The notes beneath the pieces were generated by a model. That model saw nothing but the letters and a program-made list of their open reading frames with translations, did no database searches and was not told the DNA's origin. DNA of 64,000 bases from Acidimicrobiaceae bacterium (GTDB taxonomy: Bacteria; Actinomycetota; Acidimicrobiia; Acidimicrobiales; RAAP-2): contig PKYK01000037.1 of NCBI GenBank assembly GCA_003133665.1, positions 1-64,000 of the forward strand, written 5' to 3'. Positions 6,739 through 28,515 of the stretch are shown here, piece after piece (position 1 is the first letter of the stretch; every line of letters starts with the position of its first letter). The position numbers and the translations under genes were made by a program.

Positions 6739-6816
6739 CGGGCTGTAGCGCAGCTTGGTTAGCGCGCTGCGTTCGGGACGCAGAGGTCCCCGGTTCAAAT
6801 CCGGGCAGCCCGACCA
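6739..6816 (+). tRNA. tRNA-Pro (CGG)
   Basis: A full cloverleaf can be drawn: acceptor CGGGCTG pairing with CAGCCCG, D-stem GCGC/GCGC, anticodon stem CTGCG/CGCAG with loop TTCGGGA (anticodon CGG), T-arm CCCGG-TTCAAAT-CCGGG. The CCA end is encoded at 6814-6816. It lies 30 bp upstream of tRNA-Glu. Confidence 0.95.
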
Positions 6817-6845: not shown

Positions 6846-6918
6846 GCCCCCATCGTCTAGCGGCCTAGGACACCACCCTTTCAAGGTGGCGGCACGGGTT
6901 CGAATCCCGTTGGGGGTG
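6846..6918 (+). tRNA. tRNA-Glu (TTC)
   Basis: The cloverleaf has acceptor GCCCCCA with TGGGGGT (G1-U72 wobble, common in this tRNA), anticodon stem CCACC/GGTGG with loop CTTTCAA (anticodon TTC), and T-arm CGGGTTCGAATCCCG. CCA is not encoded. Its 3' part, plus three bases beyond, recurs at 19360-19404, which suggests it served as an integration site. Confidence 0.95.
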
Positions 6919-6921
6919 CGA
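6877..6921 (+). repeat. 45-bp direct repeat, tRNA-Glu copy (att-like, left)
   Basis: This stretch from the anticodon arm to just past the tRNA end matches 19360-19404 at 43 of 45 positions in the same orientation. It is the likely left attachment site of an old island; the intact tRNA is kept on this side, as is usual for integrations into tRNA 3' ends. Confidence 0.7.
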
Positions 6922-6985: not shown

Positions 6986-7552
6986 CTACTTCGATACTTG
7001 GCTTGGTTTCGAATACGGATCAACCGGAGATTGGTGACTCTCACCTTCTGGATTTGGCCCGCTGAAGCGCAGAACGAGAAGTCCTAGAAGAAGGGTAAGG
7101 ACCACCCCGACTCCAACACCCAACGAAAGAAGGGTGTTCTTAAAATCAGTTTGGGTAAGCGAGTTACTTAAGGTCAGATGTGCAGTTTCGCTCAAGATGT
7201 CGCGAACGCCCGCCAAGATTCCGATGACAAGAAATGGTCGCACAGGAAAGACGAAAGACCTAAGGTTCCCGAACACCGTGTGCGCAATATCGAGAAGAAT
7301 GATGACTACCAGAATGTTGTCGATGGCGACCACCACTGTCTGAGGAAACGTTCCCCAATGGCTGAAGAAGTGCGCGACGGCGCGTACAAGGACAACACTC
7401 GCGACAGCGAGCAGGCTGACCACGATTGCATACTCAATTGCGATGATCAGACGACGGATTAAGACATCTGCCCGACGGTCAATCGTTAACCACACAGTTC
7501 GAGTCTTCACCATGTGAGGGAACGATAGCGGCACACGATCGCTCATGTCCAC
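6986..7552 (-). CDS. PsiE-like four-helix membrane protein
   Basis: The protein has up to 188 residues and four hydrophobic helices (IIAIEYAIVVSLLAVASVVL, VVVAIDNILVVIILLDIA, PFLVIGILAGVRDILS, LLSLGVGVGVVLTLLLGLLVL). The arrangement and the segment RPFLVIGILAGVRDIL resemble the phosphate-starvation-inducible PsiE family, whose biochemical role is unclear. Starts at 7552, 7546 or 7513 (MVKTRTVW) are possible. It is the first gene inside the suspected tRNA-Glu island and points back toward the tRNA. Confidence 0.65.
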   Translation of the reverse strand: MDMSDRVPLSFPHMVKTRTVWLTIDRRADVLIRRLIIAIEYAIVVSLLAVASVVLVRAVAHFFSHWGTFPQTVVVAIDNILVVIILLDIAHTVFGNLRSFVFPVRPFLVIGILAGVRDILSETAHLTLSNSLTQTDFKNTLLSLGVGVGVVLTLLLGLLVLRFSGPNPEGESHQSPVDPYSKPSQVSK

Positions 7553-7654: not shown

Positions 7655-7814
7655 AACAATCGCTTGCTCACGGTGCCCGAGCACATCGAGCATTGGCCCA
7701 TCGCACGGACGGCGGTCTACCTTCGCAGTACGTTTCCCGAGCCTCCAAAGACCCTGACGCAACTGCAGTCAAGACTTGGGGCGCCAGAGACTTCACTGAG
7801 CTACAGGCCTGCGG

Positions 7815-7962
7815 TTCTAATCCCCTCTGGGAGGTTAGATATGTCGAGGATTCCCAGCAATTGTCTCTTCTAATCACGCCCTTTGGTGAAATCTGCCAAG
7901 GCGTCGAGCCATCGCACCCATTCGATAATGGGAGTTTGAACGACAACCGCTGTGGGGTGCGA
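7815..7962 (+). repeat. 148-bp interspersed block, copy 1
   Basis: This block aligns end to end with 9168-9315 and 11622-11769, all 148 bp, and in part with 10988-11068. The left end is a hairpin-forming TCTAATCCCC...GGAGGTTAGA; the right end is GGAGTTTGAAC-ACAACCGCTGTGGGGTGCGA-like. Read on the minus strand the right part encodes HPTAVVVQTPIIEWVRWLDA and stops at TAG. The rest of 7553-8071 holds only the hexamer repeat and no supported gene. Confidence 0.85.
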
Positions 7963-8071
7963 AGCCACGCGAGACCTCGATCTCCGATGGTCACTAGCCC
8001 TTCGAGAGGTCAGGGAACAACTCTGTGGACAGGCTCACCTCGTCGTCATAGGCGCGTCGTACCATGGAAGC

Positions 8072-8467
8072 ATGTCGTGGCACGAGAAATCAGTCGGTGA
8101 GACCGCCGAGGAGATCTCCTCCTGCCTAGCCAAGGGCGACACGAACTCTGCCATTCGACTGTCCTTCCGATTCCTGGAGCGGTACGGGAAGTCTGACCCG
8201 GAGACTCGCGGGCGAATCACCGCCGGACAGCCCGCGCCAACCGGAAGCCAACGTTTCGATGCCCTTCTGGCGGGGATTGTCGAATACGCATGCGCATCCC
8301 ACGGAGTGGTCGCCCCCGCCTGGGTCAACGATGAAGGCCTCTTCCTCGGCGAGTTCTGGTTCGTCTCCGGCGTGGAGTCACTTCACGCAGATGCGCTGGT
8401 CCACAGTCCGATCTCTCTCGCTCGTCGAGGAGTCTTCGTGACACAAGGCGCTCTGGAATACGCCTAG
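8072..8467 (+). CDS. Hypothetical protein, probable partner of DUF6036-like protein
   Basis: Started at the ATG at 8072 (MSWHEKSVGETAEEI) the protein has 131 residues. I do not assign a function. It has a helical N-terminal half and a C-terminal part with APAWVNDEGLFLGEFWFVSG and SPISLARRGVFVTQGALEYA. Proteins with that tail often precede nucleotidyltransferase-like DUF6036 genes in actinobacteria, so it may be the antitoxin or first member of a toxin-antitoxin-like pair. It overlaps the next gene by 1 bp. It sits between two 148-bp blocks, as an island cargo gene. Confidence 0.6.
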   Translation: MSWHEKSVGETAEEISSCLAKGDTNSAIRLSFRFLERYGKSDPETRGRITAGQPAPTGSQRFDALLAGIVEYACASHGVVAPAWVNDEGLFLGEFWFVSGVESLHADALVHSPISLARRGVFVTQGALEYA

Positions 8468-9018
8468 TGACACTCCTCGGACGCGATGAACTTCTGCGAG
8501 CCCTCGGCGAACTGGACCGGGAACTCGGGGTCCTCAACGTGCGCGCCGAGGTCTTCATCGTCGATGGTGCGGCAATGGCGATTGCCTATGACATACGTCG
8601 ATCGACCGCTGACGTAGACGCAGTGTTCGTCCCCTCCGCCGAAGTCAGGGTCGCCGCATCGCGAGTCGCGGAACGATTGAATCTTGAACCCGACTGGCTA
8701 AATGACGGTGCGAAGGCGTTCATGCCCGGCGAGGACGAGAATCGCATCGGAGTCTACGAAGGGCAACATCTCAGCGTTGCGGCAGCTTCACCAGAGTTCC
8801 TGTTGGCCATGAAACTCATGGCGTCACGAGTGGAGCGCGATCAGGACGACATTCGAGCTTTGTACAAACTCTGTGAATTCACGACTGCCGAGCAGGGTCT
8901 GAATCTCCTCGCGTCGTACTACCCGGAGCGCTTGATTCTTCCACGGGTCCAATTCCTGCTTCAGGAGATGTTCCCCGACGGCCCTGAGAAGCATCGCGAC
9001 ACCGGTCTGTCTCGCTAG
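8467..9018 (+). CDS. DUF6036-like nucleotidyltransferase-fold protein (possible toxin)
   Basis: The protein is 183 residues with a GTG start overlapping the previous stop. The segment EVFIVDGAAMAIAYDIRRST and the following ADVDAVFVPS match the nucleotidyltransferase-like fold of DUF6036/AbiEii-type proteins, with ADVDAVF as the likely acidic motif. SPEFLLAMKLMASRVERDQD is also typical of that group. Such proteins form toxin-antitoxin or abortive-infection pairs with a small upstream partner. Toxicity here is inference. Both genes lie within the suspected island. Confidence 0.65.
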   Translation: MTLLGRDELLRALGELDRELGVLNVRAEVFIVDGAAMAIAYDIRRSTADVDAVFVPSAEVRVAASRVAERLNLEPDWLNDGAKAFMPGEDENRIGVYEGQHLSVAAASPEFLLAMKLMASRVERDQDDIRALYKLCEFTTAEQGLNLLASYYPERLILPRVQFLLQEMFPDGPEKHRDTGLSR

Positions 9019-9167
9019 TCCGCATCTACCTCGCCGGCACGAGAACCCCAGTCAGCGACTCAACTCTCGACTCTGACCTTCTGGCAGGAATGCCGCTGTT
9101 CGATATGTCGGCCCGCGGAGGGCCAGGACTGCTTACTGAAAGATTGACACCCAAAGCCTTGGTGGTG

Positions 9168-9315
9168 TTCTAATCCTCTCTGGGAGGATGGATGAGACAC
9201 GGTTTCCCACTTTCTTCCCGCAGAAGTCTCACGCTTTGATGAACTCTGCCAAGGCGTCAAGCCAGCGAACCCACTCGATCACTGGAGTTTGAACTACAAC
9301 CGCTGTTGGGTGCGA
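9168..9315 (+). repeat. 148-bp interspersed block, copy 2
   Basis: This copy has exactly the length of copies 1 and 4, with the hairpin end weakened (TCTAATCCTC...GGAGGATGGA). Its minus-strand reading gives SHPTAVVVQTPVIEWVRWLD and then a TGA stop. It lies about 110 bp downstream of the aldehyde dehydrogenase gene. The remainder of 9019-9425 shows no gene. Confidence 0.85.
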
Positions 9316-9425
9316 CCACTGGTAGCCAAAGTGGTGGTGGTACGAGACCACAAAAGGGCTAGAGCGATTGCCCTGACCCTTTTGAGTTATTGATCACTAC
9401 TGCCAATTCGACATAGATGTCGGCT

Positions 9426-10805
9426 TCAATTTGCGCTCGGAATATGCATGAGTTTCTTGTTGACGAACTCATCAATGCCGGCTGGCCCTAATTCGCGACC
9501 CACTCCTGACCGTTTCGTTCCACCGAAGGGCAACTCGGCGCCTCCGCCTTCCGGCGTGTTGATCCATACCATTCCGGTATCCAGACGGTCAGCCAAGTCA
9601 AGAGCCAACTCCTCGTTAAGGCTGTAAATGCAAGCTCCGAGCCCATACGGGGTGTCGTTAGCCAATCGGACGGCTTCGTCTGCATCCGCTACCCGATAGA
9701 CGACGGCAACTGGCCCGAAGAGCTCTTCTCTAAATGCGCGCATCTCTGGCGTTACGTCGGTGAGAACACCCGCCTCAATGAAAGCTCCGGGCCTGTCCAA
9801 TCGTCGTCCTCCGGTACGCAACGTCGCGCCCTTGTCGACTGCGTCCTGAATCTGGTCCATCAAGCCTCGTGCCGCCTGCTCGGAGGACAGCGGCCCGTAC
9901 GTAGTCGCAGGGTCCGTCGGGTCACCTGTGGTCTGAGCCGCCATCGCGGCGCTAAACCGTTCGACAAACTCATCGTAGATCGCGTCAGCGACGATGAAAC
10001 GCTTGGCCGCATTGCAGGCCTGGCCCGCGTTCTCCATACGTGCGCCAACGGCGTCAGTAACCACCTGCGCCATGTCGTCGGTGTCCAAGATAATGAATGG
10101 GTCCGATCCGCCAAGTTCGAGGACAATCTTCTTCAAATGCTGCCCAGCGATAGCCGCGACGGCAGTCCCGGCACGCTCGCTGCCCGTCACCGACACACCG
10201 GCGATTCTCGGGTCAGCGATGATGCCGGCTACTTGCTCATTTGACGCGAAGATGTTGACGTAAGCGTCCGTGGGTACACCTGCGTCGTGGAAGATTCGTT
10301 CCATTTCGAGTGCAGACTCTGGACATTGTGGAGCGTGCTTCAGCAGGATGGTGTTACCGATCATGAGGTTGGGAGCGACGAACCGGGCGACCTGGTAGTA
10401 GGGATAGTTCCACGGCATTATCCCCAGCAAAGCGCCGACTGGCGCCTTTCGTACCCACGCCGTACCTTCGGTGTTCGACGGCAAGGGGACATCGGCCAAC
10501 AGCTCGGGGCCCTGATCTGCGTAGTAACGATAGATATCGACAACGAACTCAACCTCGCCCAACGCTTCAGCTGTCGTCTTGCCCATTTCACGCGTTATGA
10601 GAGAAGCGAGCGCGACTGCCCGATCGCGATACAGGTCCGCAACGCGATGCAAGACTTCGGCCCTCTCCGACTTGGACGACATCCTCCACGACTGGAATCC
10701 GCCGTCCACCCGACTAATCGCTTCGGCGATTGCAACATCAGTCGCGGTGGGGTACTCGCTCTCCGCTTCGCCAGTGGCGGGATTGACAACTCGGTAGGTA
10801 CTCAA
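9426..10805 (-). CDS. NAD(P)-dependent aldehyde dehydrogenase, succinate-semialdehyde dehydrogenase type
   Basis: This 459-residue protein is a complete aldehyde dehydrogenase. It has the cofactor-binding PWNYPYYQ, the general base in VLELGGSDPFI, the catalytic cysteine in NAGQACNAAKR and the late motif ELPFGGTKRSGVGRELG. The closest group appears to be YneI/GabD-type succinate-semialdehyde dehydrogenases, but the substrate cannot be fixed. The start is TTG at 10805, supported by GAGGAG seven bases upstream. Blocks 2 and 3 flank it on both sides, so it looks like a separate cargo unit. Codon use does not stand out by eye. Confidence 0.9.
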   Translation of the reverse strand: MSTYRVVNPATGEAESEYPTATDVAIAEAISRVDGGFQSWRMSSKSERAEVLHRVADLYRDRAVALASLITREMGKTTAEALGEVEFVVDIYRYYADQGPELLADVPLPSNTEGTAWVRKAPVGALLGIMPWNYPYYQVARFVAPNLMIGNTILLKHAPQCPESALEMERIFHDAGVPTDAYVNIFASNEQVAGIIADPRIAGVSVTGSERAGTAVAAIAGQHLKKIVLELGGSDPFIILDTDDMAQVVTDAVGARMENAGQACNAAKRFIVADAIYDEFVERFSAAMAAQTTGDPTDPATTYGPLSSEQAARGLMDQIQDAVDKGATLRTGGRRLDRPGAFIEAGVLTDVTPEMRAFREELFGPVAVVYRVADADEAVRLANDTPYGLGACIYSLNEELALDLADRLDTGMVWINTPEGGGAELPFGGTKRSGVGRELGPAGIDEFVNKKLMHIPSAN

Positions 10806-10987
10806 GGTAATACTCCTCTATGTTCTCGACGACATGCGTCCCAATAGTCCAACTTGGCTCTTGGTCACCAAACTACTCATGCGCGCAACAACTTCACTTC
10901 GACTCCAGTCCACCGGTCCGCCGCCTAGACACTCTCGACTCGGCAAATCGCCCCGTCCTCCTCCTCCTCCTACAAGGCGCTGAGCCC

Positions 10988-11068
10988 ATTTAGGAACTCC
11001 GCCAACGTGTCGAGCCATCGGACCCATTGGATCACTGGAGTTTGAACTACAACCGCTGTGGGGTGCGA
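10988..11068 (+). repeat. 148-bp block, copy 3 (truncated to about 81 bp)
   Basis: Only the right part of the block is kept. The minus strand reads SHPTAVVVQTPVIQWVRWLD and then diverges before a TAG. It begins about 20 bp beyond the stop of the DUF1801 gene, the closest gene-block spacing in the set. The hairpin half is missing. Confidence 0.75.
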
Positions 11069-11090
11069 AGTGACCGATGTCTGCCGTTGA

Positions 11091-11483
11091 CTAGTCGCGG
11101 TTCGAGGTGTTCAGCTTCACGGCGGCGCGGATGAGGGCCTTCAGCGCCTGCTCGTCGACCTTGTCGCCTTGGTGAAAGTCGATGGCACGCCTGACTTTGC
11201 CTTCGAGGCTGGAATTGAACGAGCCTGAAGGGTCCTTCAGAGAGGCGCCTTTGGCGAAGGTCATCTTCACAACGTTCTTGTATGTCTCGCCGGTGCAGAT
11301 CAGTCCGTCGTGGGACCACACCGGAACACCCCACTTCCACTCCTCGACGACTTTGGGGTCGGCCTGCTTGATCAGAGCGCGGATCCGCGAGAGCGTCTCG
11401 CCGCGCCAGTCGCTCAACTCTTTGATTCTCGCGTCTATCTGCTGAGATGGAGAGTCGCCCTTCTGCGAGCCAGTAGTTTTCAT
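11091..11483 (-). CDS. DUF1801 (YdhG-like) protein
   Basis: The protein has 130 residues from the ATG at 11483; the track start is a TTG three codons earlier. The order of motifs, IDARIKELSDWRGETLSRIR, VEEWKWGVPVWSHDGLICTG and VVKMTFAKGASLKDPSG, matches DUF1801/YdhG proteins, small single-domain proteins of uncertain role related to an iron-chaperone-like fold. It stands alone between blocks 3 and 4 and is oriented so that block 3 lies immediately downstream. Confidence 0.85.
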   Translation of the reverse strand: MKTTGSQKGDSPSQQIDARIKELSDWRGETLSRIRALIKQADPKVVEEWKWGVPVWSHDGLICTGETYKNVVKMTFAKGASLKDPSGSFNSSLEGKVRRAIDFHQGDKVDEQALKALIRAAVKLNTSNRD

Positions 11484-11621
11484 GGACTTCAAAGTACATT
11501 ATGCGTGCGACGGCTCCAAGTCAGAGCCCTTCGAAAGGCGAAGAAGCACCCAGATTGGTAGGACTGAACCAGGTGACAGTTCTTCCAAGCCAAGTCAAAC
11601 AGGGGCGGCTCCCCAACCTGT

Positions 11622-11769
11622 TTCTAATCCCCTATGGCAGGTTAGATACGCAGAGGATTCCCAGCGTTTCACCGTACTAATCACGCCATTTGATGAACGC
11701 TGCCAAGGCATCGAGCCGTCGCACCCATTCGATGACAGGAGTTTGAACTACAACCGCTGTAGGGTGCCA
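11622..11769 (+). repeat. 148-bp interspersed block, copy 4
   Basis: This copy aligns over its full length with copies 1 and 2. The hairpin end reads TCTAATCCCC...CAGGTTAGA. The minus strand reads WHPTAVVVQTPVIEWVRRLD and stops at TAG, in the same frame as copies 1-3. Coordinates may be off by one base. It lies in the gene-poor 11484-12154 interval between the DUF1801 gene and the AlpA-like remnant. Confidence 0.8.
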
Positions 11770-11937: not shown

Positions 11938-12123
11938 CTGTAACCTCACCGTCGTCGAGCTCATCGAGCGCTGGCCGATAGGACACCAAGACCTACGAGC
12001 TGGTGAAGGCGCCAGGCTTTCCCGAGGCGCTCGTCCTGCTGCGCGACAAGAACGGACGGCCCCAATCAATGGAGTTCCGGCTCAGTGAGATCGTCGCTTA
12101 CGAGCAGCGTCGGGAAGTTCGAA
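11938..12123 (+). pseudogene. Frameshifted AlpA/excisionase-like helix-turn-helix remnant
   Basis: One frame gives NLTVVELIERWPIG, which looks like the start of an AlpA/MerR-like DNA-binding helix. A second frame beginning around 11977 gives TYELVKAPGFPEALVLLRDK, then MEFRLSEIVAYEQRR, the typical remainder of excisionase/AlpA-type regulators. A frameshift near 11975 and an in-frame TAG separate the parts, and no start is visible. Such proteins usually belong to phages, plasmids or integrative elements. The remnant therefore supports past mobile DNA between tRNA-Glu and its partial copy. Confidence 0.6.
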
Positions 12124-12154
12124 GATCGCCGTCTCTTTCGTCAACTCCGCCGCG

Positions 12155-14546: not shown

Positions 14547-14767
14547 TCGGTCACCAACTCTGGCGTTCGCTGCGTCGCATGTTCAGTGCGACTGCGACTG
14601 CACGTAATCTTCCACAACTCTTCCATAGTTGGATATGCCATTCTTCACGGTGCTTGGGATTCCTCAACGGTTGCCAGTCACACGGCTGTACTGAGCAGTT
14701 TCCCGATTCAGATGTTGAACAGACTGATCTCTGCTCGGGCCATGTCTGCCGAGAGCGAGAACGTCCG

Positions 14768-15544
14768 CTAGCTCCTCGCCACGTTCCCTTGATCCGCGCT
14801 ACGAGCGGGCGGGCGAAATGCGGCGAAGGGATCAGTCACCCGCAACGTCCGCTCGCTGAATCGGTAGATCGTCGCGGGTCGACCCCCGGATGATGAGGGC
14901 GACGCGACCGATGCAGTTGACTCGATGATCTCGCGACGGAGCAAGACCCTCTGAAGGTTGGTGGATGAGATCGTGTGGCCGAGACACGACTCGTACACGA
15001 CCCTCAACTCCGCGATTGTGAAGACCCTTGGTGCGAGTGCGTACGCCACGTTGGTGTAGGTCAGTTTCGCGCGGAGTCGCTCGCGTCCGGATTGGATGAT
15101 CGACGCATGATCGAAGGCCGTTGGCGGAAGATCATCAACAGGGAACCACGCCGTATCGCCAGGTATCGTCGGATTCAGATCCGTCGAGACCAAGGCGATG
15201 TAGGCCGTCGCGATAATCCGTCCTCGCGGGTCCCGGTCGACGTCGCTGCGGGTCTCCAATTGCTCAAGGAAACCAATGTCGGTAAGGTCCACCTTGGCCG
15301 CGAGATGGCGCCCGAGCGAAGACCCGAGACGCTCCGTGCTCCCGAGCGCACCGCCGGGCAGCGCCCAGCACTGGGCGAAGGGCTCATGCGCCCGCTGCCA
15401 AAGCAGCGAATGCAACTTCCGCTCGCGAACCTGGAAGACGACGGCCAGAGCCTCATGCTCGAACCGGTCCGCGGATTGGTCGGCCGTCTCGACGTCACTC
15501 GTCTGCGGAGCGAAAGAAGATCCAGGGGTTTGACGCGACGACAC
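14768..15544 (-). CDS. nrtR: NrtR-type Nudix transcriptional regulator of NAD synthesis
   Basis: The 258-residue protein has an N-terminal Nudix-like domain (about 28-160; ALPGGALGSTERLGSSLGRH) in which the catalytic Nudix glutamates are largely missing, and a C-terminal winged helix (about 165-240; FTIAELRVVYESCLG and later RVLLRREIIESTA). That is the architecture of NrtR, which binds ADP-ribose or related NAD metabolites and represses NAD biosynthesis genes. It is divergent from nadABC, with a perfect palindrome between, as expected of an autoregulated local repressor. The start is GTG at 15544. Confidence 0.85.
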   Translation of the reverse strand: MSSRQTPGSSFAPQTSDVETADQSADRFEHEALAVVFQVRERKLHSLLWQRAHEPFAQCWALPGGALGSTERLGSSLGRHLAAKVDLTDIGFLEQLETRSDVDRDPRGRIIATAYIALVSTDLNPTIPGDTAWFPVDDLPPTAFDHASIIQSGRERLRAKLTYTNVAYALAPRVFTIAELRVVYESCLGHTISSTNLQRVLLRREIIESTASVASPSSSGGRPATIYRFSERTLRVTDPFAAFRPPARSADQGNVARS

Positions 15545-15564
15545 GCCTAATGGTAACGTAAAGA

Positions 15565-15595
15565 CGAGGTTTTCGCCTATCAGGCGAAAACCTCG
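15565..15595. promoter_or_regulatory. Perfect palindrome between nrtR and nadA (candidate NrtR operator)
   Basis: CGAGGTTTTCGCCT, three bases, AGGCGAAAACCTCG: 14-bp perfect arms about 21 bp upstream of the nrtR start and 75 bp upstream of nadA. The position suits an operator controlling both divergent genes. A terminator is unlikely because no gene ends here. Confidence 0.7.
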
Positions 15596-15669
15596 GGTAA
15601 CAGTTCTCTCGCCTCACCGAAGGGACCGGTTGCCCGTGTTAATTCACTTTCTACTAGCAAGGTCGACCA

Positions 15670-16668
15670 TTGGCAACCACAGGGATTGGAAGAGACGAGG
15701 ACGTTTTTCGTCGGTGGTCCGAAGAGGTCCGGCGACTCGCCGACGAGCGCGACGCCGTCATCCTTGCCCACAACTATCAGCTCCCCGAGATCCAGGACGT
15801 CGCGGATCACGTGGGCGACTCCCTCGCCCTCTCTCGAATCGCCGCCGCGAGTTCGGCGACAACAATCGTGTTCGCCGGTGTCTACTTCATGGCCGAAACC
15901 GCAAAGATTCTGGCACCCGAAAAGACCGTGTTGATCCCCGAGCGGCGAGCCGGCTGTTCGCTCGCCGACAGCATCAACGCCGATCAGCTCCGCGAGTGGA
16001 AGTCGGAGCACCCGGACGCCGTTGTCGTTGCGTACGTGAATACTAGCGCGCAGGTAAAGGCTGAGACGGACCTGTGCTGCACGTCGGCGAACGCCGTCGA
16101 GATCGTCGCGGGCATACCGAACGACCGGGAGATCCTCTTCCTGCCCGACCAATTCCTGGGCGCGCACGTGCAGCGAACGACCAAGAGAAAGAACATGCAC
16201 ATATGGATGGGCGAGTGCCACGTGCACGCCGGCATCAGTCCGCAGGAACTTCGCACGAAGGCCGCAGCCGCGCCTGAATCGGAACTCTTCATTCACCCCG
16301 AGTGCGGGTGCGCAACACCAGCGCTGTGGCTCACCGGCACGGGTGACCTTCCCGCCGAGCGAACCCACGTGCTCTCGACCGGCGGAATGCTCGAGCGAGC
16401 ACGAACGACGCAGGCTCGTTCGGTACTCGTCGCTACCGAGACGGGAATGCTGCATCAACTGCGGAGGGTCAATCCTTCGGTCAAGTGGGAGCCCGTGAAC
16501 GCAAAGGCCGAGTGCGTGTACATGAAGATGACGACGCCAGAGGTCCTGCTCCGCTGCCTGCGCACGGGCACGACCGAAGTGGAGGTCGATCCCGAGATTG
16601 CGAGCCGGGCTCGCCGGGCCGTCGAAGCCATGATTTCGGTCGGCACGTCGTCGCCGGTGGGCGAATGA
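15670..16668 (+). CDS. nadA: Quinolinate synthase NadA
   Basis: The protein is 332 residues with a TTG start. It catalyses condensation of iminoaspartate with dihydroxyacetone phosphate to quinolinate, the second step of de novo NAD synthesis. The three 4Fe-4S ligand cysteines lie in [18 protein letters not shown] and PECGCATPA; the start region has [20 protein letters not shown]. It is the first gene of nadABC, with ATG of nadB overlapping its TGA. NrtR control is inferred from the adjacent regulator and palindrome. Confidence 0.95.
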
Positions 16669-18305
16669 AAGTCGGCTCTCTTAAGTACCTACCCTCGACG
16701 GAGCATTCGTGGCAACGCGAGACGGACATCGTCATCATCGGCGCGGGAGCGGCCGGGCTCAGCGCGGCTCTGGATTCTTCGAGACGAGGCCATCGAGTGA
16801 TCTTGCTCAGCAAGGGGAACCTTCGGGGAGGATCGACTCTCCTCGCCCAAGGCGGCCTCGCTGCCGTTGTCGGCAAGGGAGATTCACTGAACTCACACGT
16901 GAACGACACGCTGGTCGCCGCCGCCGGTCTCGCGGACGAGACGATGGTGCGCGAGTTGGTGGCGGCCGCTCCGGGCGCGGTCCGATATCTTGCCGGACTG
17001 GGCGCTCGCTTTGACAACGGTCCGCTCGGCCTGGAGGGAGGCCACTCACACCGCCGAATCGTCCACGCCGGAGGCGACGCGATCGGGGCAGAGATCCACC
17101 GGGTTCTTCGTCGGGCAGTGAGTGATTCTGACGTCGAGACGATGGAGAACGCCGTCGCGATCGATGCCCTTACGAATAGCCGTGGCGACGTCATTGGCAT
17201 CCTCGTGGGAAAGATCAACCAAACGGTCGACCAGGGGTTGGACGTGGGCATCATCGCCGCGCGTGCTGTCGTCGTGGCGACCGGAGGATTCGGCCAGGCC
17301 TTCTCCTCATCAACGAATCCCGCCGAAGTGACGGGCGACGGTCTCGCACTCGCTGCCCGGGCGGGAGCCGAGATCACGAATGTCGAGTTCGTCCAGTTTC
17401 ATCCGACCGTCCTCTATGTTCCTGGTCAGCGCGGCCAGTCCCCCCTGATCACCGAGGCCATTCGAGGCGCGGGGGCCACGATTGTTGACGCGAAGGGGAC
17501 CCCGGTCATGCGAGGACAGCACGCACGCGGTGACCTCGCTCCGCGAGACGTTGTCTCCTACACGATGTTTCAACGAATGCACTCGCCGGTCGAGCCGGTC
17601 GCCAATCTCTGGCTTGACGCGCGAGCCATCGGAGACGTTCGACTGGACAAGGACTTTCCCACGACCGTCGAGCTCTGTCGCCAGGCAGGGGTCGACCCGT
17701 CCAGCGAACTCATCCCCATTGCCCCAGCCGCCCACTATGCGTGTGGAGGGGTTCGTGCGGACCTCGACGGCAACTCATCAATCCGAGGCCTCTACGTAGT
17801 CGGAGAGGCGGCGGCGACTGGAGTGCACGGCGCCAATCGCTTGGCCTCCAACTCTCTCACCGAGGCCCTCATCAGTGGCCGTCGACTTGCCCGGCAACTC
17901 GACGATGCGCTCTCATCCCGTTCCAGTCCTTTGGCGCCTCCCGGCTGTGTCAATCCCGCTCAGGGACGCGGCGTCGAATCCTCAACCCGAGAGACGGTGT
18001 CCACCAAGATGTCGACACACGTCGGAGTTGTCCGCAGTAGAACCGGCCTCGAAGACATACTCGATACGTTGGCAAGCGCTCCCGATAGTCCCGCGGCGCC
18101 GCTCGACCTCGCCACCCTCGAAGCGACCAACCTTCATACGGTCTCTCTGCTGGCGGCTTGGGCCGCATCGCTTCGAGAAGAGAGCCGTGGGTGTCATCGT
18201 CGAAGCGACTTCCCAGAGGTCGCCGATAGGTGGGGACACTCAATCTCGCTTCACGTCTTCGAGGGCGAGATCATCACTCACGTCGAGACCATGGCCGGCG
18301 CATGA
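16665..18305 (+). CDS. nadB: L-aspartate oxidase NadB
   Basis: Started at the ATG overlapping the nadA stop, the protein has 546 residues. It oxidises L-aspartate to iminoaspartate with FAD. The FAD site [20 protein letters not shown] is near residues 21-41, with [28 protein letters not shown] and [12 protein letters not shown] matching the succinate dehydrogenase/NadB flavoprotein family. The track's earlier start adds unrelated sequence inside nadA. NadB is slightly long for the family because of a low-complexity C-terminal segment around 465-485. Confidence 0.95.
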
Positions 18306-19204
18306 TCAAGGAACTCCACGAAATGTTGGAAGTGGCCGGTATCGATTCCACGGAGCTTCAACGCCTGGTCGATCTCTCCCTTGCCGAGGACCTTCGCTTT
18401 GGACCCGACGTGACGAGTGAAGCGACTATTCCCGTCGGTCAAGAGGCCGAAGGCGAAGTGGTCGCCCGACAGCCCGGCATCGTGTGCGGCGTCACGGTAG
18501 CTCTCGTGGTCCTTGAGGCAGTGCAGTTCCCACGGTCCGGAGTCACGATCATTCACGAAGACGGCGACGCGGTCGAGGCCGGTGACGCCGTTCTGCACCT
18601 TTCGGGACCTCTCCGACCGCTGCTCCTCGCTGAACGAACACTGCTCAACTTCATGACCCACATGTCCGGAATCGCCACGGCGACTAACTCTTGGGTGCGG
18701 GCCCTGGAGGGCACGAGTTGCGCGGTGCGCGATACTAGGAAGACCACACCCGGACTTCGCCAAATAGAAAAATACTCCGTGCGACGCGGCGGCGGGACAA
18801 ATCACCGAATGGGCCTTGGCGACGCTGCCCTTATCAAGGACAACCACATCGCTGCGGCCGGTGGTATCACCCGGGCTGTCACGGCTATCCGATCCGCCAA
18901 TCCGGATATCAGTCTGGAGGTCGAGTGCGACACACTCGAGCAAGTCCGCGAAGCGATCAGCATTCAGTGCTCTCTGATACTTCTCGACAACATGGATGTT
19001 GACACGATCCGGGCCGCTGTCGAGATCGCCCGCCGATCACCGGCGGTGCGCGTCGAGGCCAGCGGCGGAATGACACTTGAAAACGCGCGCGCCGTCGCTC
19101 GGGCGGGTGTTGACTACATAGCCGTGGGTTCACTCACTCATTCGGCCGCCTCACTAGATCTTGGCCTCGACATAGTCCCTACGACACCAACAGCGAATTC
19201 TTGA
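18302..19204 (+). CDS. nadC: Nicotinate-nucleotide diphosphorylase NadC
   Basis: The protein has 300 residues from the ATG at 18302, overlapping the nadB TGA by 4 bp. It converts quinolinate and PRPP to nicotinate mononucleotide. VRDTRKTTPGLRQIEKYSVR and then GLGDAALIKDNH hold the conserved substrate-binding Arg, Lys and His residues; EASGGMTLENAR is the C-terminal phosphate-binding strand. Together the three genes make NAMN from aspartate. Confidence 0.95.
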   Translation: MIKELHEMLEVAGIDSTELQRLVDLSLAEDLRFGPDVTSEATIPVGQEAEGEVVARQPGIVCGVTVALVVLEAVQFPRSGVTIIHEDGDAVEAGDAVLHLSGPLRPLLLAERTLLNFMTHMSGIATATNSWVRALEGTSCAVRDTRKTTPGLRQIEKYSVRRGGGTNHRMGLGDAALIKDNHIAAAGGITRAVTAIRSANPDISLEVECDTLEQVREAISIQCSLILLDNMDVDTIRAAVEIARRSPAVRVEASGGMTLENARAVARAGVDYIAVGSLTHSAASLDLGLDIVPTTPTANS

Positions 19205-19359
19205 ATAGAGGGCTCCGGCAGTTCTTGGTGACGAATCGAACTGAGAGTCCCGGAAAACTAGTGTCCGTATGGTGCCCGAGGTAAGATGAAATGAAATTCC
19301 GACTTCTCGAAAAGCGACTTGATCAGTGCTTTTGCCACTGGATACAGCGCCGGTCCCCG

Positions 19360-19404
19360 CCTTTCAAGGTGGCGGCACGGGTTGGAATCCCGTTGGGGGC
19401 GCGA
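19360..19404 (+). repeat. Partial tRNA-Glu copy (att-like, right)
   Basis: This 45-bp segment repeats 6877-6921 with two mismatches: C to G inside the T-loop, and T to C at the last acceptor pair. No 5' half of a tRNA is present, so it is not a gene. A 3'-tRNA fragment in direct orientation 12.48 kb from the intact tRNA is the expected far-side scar of integration into tRNA-Glu. The rest of 19205-19495 has no gene. Confidence 0.8.
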
Positions 19405-28197: not shown

Positions 28198-28515
28198 GTG
28201 GGCGTTCAGTGGCATGAGATTCCGCCTCTGTCTCTTCGGAGAACCGAATCACGGCGAAACGTTCGGGGCGCTGGTCTGGATGACCCTGGGGAGAGGGGCG
28301 AAGACGCGCAACTCCGGACGTCGGTCGGGATGCGTCACGACTGCTTGCGGACTGCGTCCGTCCATCGAGCCGCTGCGGCCCTCCCCTGACTGGAGTCTGA
28401 ACCGATGCCTCCGCGAGAAGGCAACCGCGCGAGGCCTGTTGCCGAAAGGCGGCGAATGAATTCGAAGTCCGCCAACGGGAAGCGCCGCCGTTGCGACAGC
28501 CGTAGATTGCGACGT
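28198..28515. other. Intergenic, no supported gene
   Basis: About 318 bp between the phosphotransferase and ada. ORFs here run antisense into ada and look like shadows. An in-frame upstream ATG at 28456 would extend ada by 20 basic residues. Confidence 0.35.

Follow-up and report, generated by a model that had tools for sequence, protein, structure and literature searches.

A 148-bp repeat as a likely attachment module of integrative cassettes at a tRNA-Glu gene in an uncultivated Acidimicrobiaceae genus

We analyzed a repeated block of ~148 bp in an array of cargo genes downstream of tRNA-Glu(TTC), in a window of 64,000 nucleotides (the whole stretch of DNA under study). We consider it likely that this block is the fixed-length attachment module (attR/P-arm) of integrative cassettes targeting the 3′ end of tRNA-Glu(TTC), and in our best reading these cassettes form a second family of tRNA-Glu-targeting integrative elements.

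Within the window, a repeat search recovered three long block copies at 7815–7960, 9168–9313, and 11622–11767 and one shorter copy near 10984–11070, in one shared orientation, with the long copies 75–84% identical to the first. A profile search, based on a sequence-only model built from the copies of relatives (cmsearch model R1), returned four copies, all on the minus strand, with E-values of 2e-33 to 1e-17 (Table 1). The repeat reported by the first-pass annotation, i.e., three near-equal copies plus a truncated fourth in a single orientation, is thus real. Block C corresponds to model positions 1–83, with the right end retained and the left end missing. A constant length had also been claimed, and this holds for the three full copies in the window (~147 bp), but copies elsewhere in the genus vary: most measure 145–148 bp, with exceptions of +6 bp (L021), about −9 bp (L029), and −2 bp (L028), and with small frameshifting gaps in L049 and L051. 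No further good copy was found in the rest of the same genome (2.49 Mb, 85.8% complete). A weak, GC-rich profile match at 28289–28404 (E 2e-6 in the window search) was unconvincing and is probably due to chance, or else a very old block relic. An Rfam search returned two tRNAs only, plus one sub-threshold chance match elsewhere, and the block matched no Rfam family of structured RNA.

Table 1 Features of the tRNA-Glu array in the window, in order of position.
Feature	Position	Strand	Basis or remark
tRNA-Pro(CGG), precedes tRNA-Glu	6739-6816		
tRNA-Glu(TTC), array anchor (putative attB)	6846..6919	+	ARAGORN
Cargo tRNA-Glu/A: PsiE family protein	6986..7552	-	Pfam
Block A, full candidate attachment module	7814..7960	-	cmsearch R1 E 2.1e-33
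Left core of block A, TCTAACCTCCCAGAGGGGATTAGAAC	7814..7839	-	hairpin / tRNA T-arm-like outer boundary
Frame HPTAVVVQTPIIEWVRWLDALADFTKGRD	7873..7959, stop 7870-7872	-	start codon absent
Right core of block A, GCACCCCACAGCGGTTGTCGTTCAAACTCC	7931..7960	-	best-conserved part in all copies
Cargo A/B: small unknown protein + DUF6036 nucleotidyltransferase (TA-like pair)	8072..9018	+	Pfam
Block B, full candidate module	9167..9313	-	cmsearch R1 E 7e-32
Cargo B/C: aldehyde dehydrogenase	9426..10805	-	Pfam
Block C, truncated candidate module	10984..11066 (to 11070 in repeat search)	-	cmsearch R1 E 1.1e-17
Cargo C/D: DUF1801 protein	11091..11492	-	Pfam
Block D, full candidate module	11622..11767	-	cmsearch R1 E 2.7e-33
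att47 relic	19360..19404	+	blastn, 96% copy of tRNA-Glu 3′ half

The array starts at a tRNA-Pro/tRNA-Glu pair next to a gene that we take, from its translation, to be of HlyC/CorC type, and this synteny is shared by most of the genus, an uncultivated Acidimicrobiaceae group represented by metagenome-assembled genomes (MAGs) from palsa, bog, and fen. Searches with the tRNA-Glu sequence revealed exact or near-exact copies of its 3′ half (45–53 bp, hereafter att47) downstream of tRNA-Glu in many genomes. These delimit cassettes in relatives and form direct repeats of the 3′ part of tRNA-Glu in at least 15 hotspot places. The att47 relic in the window has a degenerate P-arm just upstream, a GATCAG motif 82 bp from its end, and a right flank 88% identical to the flank of an att47 in G109. 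In the interval 14690–19404, which ends with this relic, the nadA-nadB-nadC genes lie between the array and the relic; a relic behind nadC is present in G028 too, again with apparent core genes between tRNA-Glu and the att copy.

Blocks share this setting. On all 11 contigs where a block is visible together with tRNA-Glu or att47, the blocks lie behind tRNA-Glu or att47, and all 18 blocks on these contigs are antiparallel to the tRNA-Glu/att47 sense. Degenerate blocks were also detected downstream of tRNA-Glu in G111, G060, and G050; as in the window, the PsiE gene is the first behind tRNA-Glu in G111, followed by the degenerate block. A Pfam check of the neighbor genes confirmed the DUF6036 nucleotidyltransferase with its small protein, the aldehyde dehydrogenase, the DUF1801 protein, PsiE, and RtcB, but the supposed AlpA remnant (11982–12140) had no Pfam match.

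Of the 99 genomes of the genus, 13 contained confident block copies in the profile search (E < 1e-10), 24 in total. No copy was found with this profile in about 190 genomes from other genera of the order, and when 395 genomes of the class were searched with a peptide profile, only the genome studied here and one congener matched. The block therefore does recur in relatives, where the first-pass annotation had proposed to look for it, but is restricted to the genus. Confident blocks were observed in larger genomes (2.4–3.0 Mb) in the genus-wide search, and smaller congeners had no confident copy. All genomes are fragmented MAGs, whose contigs often break at blocks. Contig ends accordingly carry an unusually high share of the blocks, which is what one expects when repeats occur in variable arrays, and standard MAGs would under-report arrays whose contigs end at their modules. 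Truncation or frameshifts in several copies suggest that many blocks are probably inactive relics.

Blocks and att47 are linked by their cargo. Blocks A and B enclose the DUF6036 pair in the window, and two att47 copies enclose it in G124 (71% identity over 911 bp); another cargo, X, is arranged as att47–X–block in G105 and as block–X–block in G033 (88%). Cargo S (96% identical in G105 and G108) directly adjoins a block in G105, without a single base in between, and an att in G108; these two genomes carry S and X in opposite order, and in G108 S and X abut with no block between them, which counts against the attachment reading. For cargo Y, the preceding element is a block in G008 but a degenerate tRNA-Glu half in G038: these genomes share 321 bp at 84% identity through TCGCACCCC, beyond which one carries the block and the other the degenerate half. 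The exchange point between L024 and L030 falls exactly after GCACCCC. Five blocks, and more weakly a sixth, have as right flank a conserved left arm made of a terminator and GAGTGACC repeats, and the same left arm stands to the right of tRNA-Glu and of att47. Likewise, the cargo to the right of Block D is 70% identical over 104 bp to that to the right of an att47 in G033. Because a given cargo can have blocks as its borders in one genome and att47 in another, sequence comparison indicates that the block serves as a cassette boundary just as att47 does, and that the two occupy the same, interchangeable junctions.

Linkage on the left side of the block follows another pattern. A cyclase gene and its block are 97% identical between G027 and G028, with unrelated right and far flanks and a divergence that starts exactly at the right end of the block, and a DUF4232 gene with its block is 90% identical between G009 and G058. 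Block A similarly shares 43 bp of left cargo with a G008 block (L024:1857). In G050, a DUF1801 gene (93% homologue) lies directly behind tRNA-Glu, where the window has three further cassettes in between. The earlier suggestion of a recombination site is supported, with cargo gained, lost, and reordered at block edges in relatives and a block right end that matches the tRNA-Glu 3′ terminus; its companion, a small mobile unit, fits less well, as the block moves with its left-hand cargo and not alone.

Read on the minus strand, nearly all block copies start with GCACCCCACAGCGGTTGTAGTTCAAACTCC or a close variant, and complete copies end with CTCCCAnnnGGGATTAGAAC, with unrelated flanks on both sides; the start is kept in all confident copies not cut by a contig end, and the end is absent in some. 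By alignment, the right core appears as the counterpart of the tRNA-Glu 3′ terminus at the junction (antisense GCACCCCCAACGG; p 0.015), and the other tRNAs of the window gave no significant alignment. The left core is probably an arm-type site. Its pattern was found inside blocks only among the 99 genomes, and we rejected it as an independent site on these grounds. It also resembles the antisense 3′ end of tRNA-Glu, with none of 2000 shuffles reaching its score, although tRNA-Asp scores nearly as well, and it may possibly represent a second degenerate tRNA end.

This resemblance of both outer ends to tRNA-Glu 3′-end halves, as though some 125 bp had been inserted into an att, could point to a small non-autonomous (MITE-like) element that inserts into existing att sites. 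Under such a scenario, however, one would not expect blocks to move with their left-hand cargo, the left core to occur never without the rest of the block, or intact tRNA halves to be missing to the left of blocks, and we regard it as quite improbable. In size, the block resembles the att47 modules: in 16 of 20 of these, paired GCCC arm repeats start 142–145 bp from the tRNA 3′ end, with GATCAG 82–84 bp from that end in most, and the block, at ~148 bp and with a palindromic, T-arm-like outer end, is about as long, although it lacks the TGCCC repeat pair of these modules. Attachment sites of tyrosine integrases have a core-plus-arm organization, which would explain the fixed block length, with the left core as the presumed arm site.

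Specifically, we propose that each cassette consists, in the direction of the tRNA, of cargo followed by its own block, whose right end (..GGGGTGC), identical to the tRNA 3′ terminus, would be the crossover segment. New units would enter beside the tRNA or an existing att, building an array of the form tRNA - cargo - att - cargo - att. Two types of module would coexist in such an array: type 1, with arm repeats, an inner site, and the 47-bp tRNA-Glu 3′ half (142–145 bp in total), and type 2, the 148-bp block. A tyrosine integrase would act on the block, with the left core as arm-type site, and the need for a set distance between core and arm sites would hold the length constant. This scheme builds on the observed place and orientation of blocks, their equivalence to att47, the exchange of cargo at their right boundary, and their linkage to the cargo on their left.

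The genome studied here encodes Xer-type and other tyrosine recombinases, none of them near the array, and no integrase was found adjacent to any block, which counts against the proposed scheme. Elements of 7–11 kb behind tRNA-Glu in G105 and G109 bear an integrase, encoded at G105:C10:75574-76698 and G109:C27:89929-91020, and G108 carries an integrase at the same hotspot place; the G109 enzyme has an N-terminal SAM-like domain of the arm-binding type. The search for a co-occurring recombinase, as proposed by the first-pass annotation, thus gave hotspot integrases in three genomes, none of them tied to the block itself. Separately, several congeners carry three tandem tyrosine recombinase genes in a RIT-like arrangement (G005:C24:14603-16946; G008:C115:28001-30356; G027:C14, C15, and C58; G038:C21), and one such trio in G005 lies about 11 kb from a block.

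Units of gene plus site in one orientation, exchangeable cargo, and the lack of a local integrase are also features of integron attC arrays and CALIN, so that the block might be read as an attC-like site with a single-strand fold, used by an IntI-like integrase. Yet the IntI model TIGR02249 was never above cut-off in the genome studied here (86% complete), where the best matches were distant Xer/phage-type enzymes. The consensus fold is weak, with compensatory change in one pair of 19 and z-scores of −0.8 to −3, and is thus not attC-like; the block ends match tRNA-Glu, no R′′/R′ boxes were seen in them, and the sites alternate with tRNA-Glu halves. An integron-type array hence appears extremely improbable.

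The interior of the block is harder to reconcile with a pure DNA site. Between the block ends, a minus-strand frame reads HPTAVVVQTPVIEWVRWLDALAEFIKxRD. Among 19 gap-free copies, this frame had a pN/pS of 0.46, the lowest of the six frames, and one stop; it alone showed conservative replacements (mean BLOSUM62 +0.05 vs −0.7 or worse), and its excess of third-position changes was significant by column permutation (p 0.00085). The protein-level constraint on this frame is real and counts against a pure DNA site, where it would not be expected. Most copies have neither a start codon nor a continuous upstream frame, and the frame peptide matched no family in Pfam, NCBIfam, or PHROGs. We rejected coding on the plus strand (higher pN/pS and unconservative replacements), the block as a tag on a genuine gene upstream (the frames there being closed or differing), and an ORF running on into the left arms (stops present).

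Two readings take this coding signature as their starting point. In the first, blocks are degenerating 3′ pieces of an ordinary gene family present in multiple copies, spread by duplication and with no recombination role, which would agree with the truncated and frameshifted copies as well. However, genus- and class-wide searches found no parent gene, and sharp ends, a single orientation, the restriction to tRNA-Glu arrays, and exact exchange with att47 would all be unexpected, which makes this reading very improbable. In the second, the att lies within an ORF of the element and integration severs its last 29 or so codons, so that each block is an attachment module plus an orphan gene tail. 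The constraint on the frame begins exactly at the att core and ends at the stop, the frame continues from antisense tRNA-Glu (HPQRDSNP) at the junction, and in mycobacteriophage BPs integration removes a 33-residue tail (PMC4557955). Against this, no intact parent gene was found in the 99 genus genomes, 395 class genomes, or viral contigs, phage and plasmid records likewise yielded none (phage matches reached E 8 only), the sequence upstream differs for each copy and often contains stops, and the antisense frames of left arms are interrupted by stops. We consider this origin unlikely.

The closest known case of an attachment core within a reading frame is the integration-dependent immunity of BPs, where some 30 codons of the C-terminus lie beyond the core (PMC4557955); here, no parent gene was found and the tail alone repeats. 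That the type 2 core lies inside a small gene whose C-terminal 29 residues (HPTAVVVQTPVIEWVRWLDALAEFIK...) are swapped upon insertion or excision is unlikely. If true, this would amount to an integration-dependent protein switch in a multi-cassette tRNA array, with blocks as orphan tails left behind.

The array belongs to the additive islands that form at tRNA genes. Flexible genomic islands of this additive type in marine ‘Ca. Actinomarinales’ consist of cassettes that end in partial tRNA repeats (PMC7771536), and the claim that no element of such form had been described, i.e., that the system was new, was therefore too strong. For those islands, partial tRNA repeats alone are described, whereas here many junctions carry, in place of the tRNA repeat, a second module of 148 bp whose interior is coding-like. 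The tRNA-Lys additive island fGI-2 of Methylophilaceae, with variable cargo and a variable copy number of the last 20 bp of the tRNA (PMC10872708), differs in phylum and tRNA and is without a long conserved module. Tycheposons, in the summary given by the same study, are cargo islands anchored at tRNAs and associated with a tyrosine recombinase (PMC10872708); on that second-hand description they are a related kind, of which the present array, with its tRNA anchoring and hotspot integrases, is a candidate member. The block is a little-studied variant of such islands, distinguished by a long interior that is conserved and holds a coding-like frame; our limited literature search found no description of an attachment module of this kind, which is weak evidence of absence.

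For this uncultivated soil genus, every block and every tRNA-Glu half records an insertion in the past; together they provide a map of gene gain, in which cassettes that carry TA-like genes, cyclases, or enzymes are traceable from species to species. The array would combine an integron-like exchange of cassettes with a tRNA gene as its base, and with two attachment modules whose fixed lengths are almost equal, the block being under unexplained protein-level constraint. Finally, one G027 contig (L095, G027:C34:503-620) carries several tandem copies of the tRNA-Glu acceptor end (a CCGTTGGGGGTGCCA unit) to the right of an att47 and before the next left arm, a possible footprint of repeated recombination or slippage.
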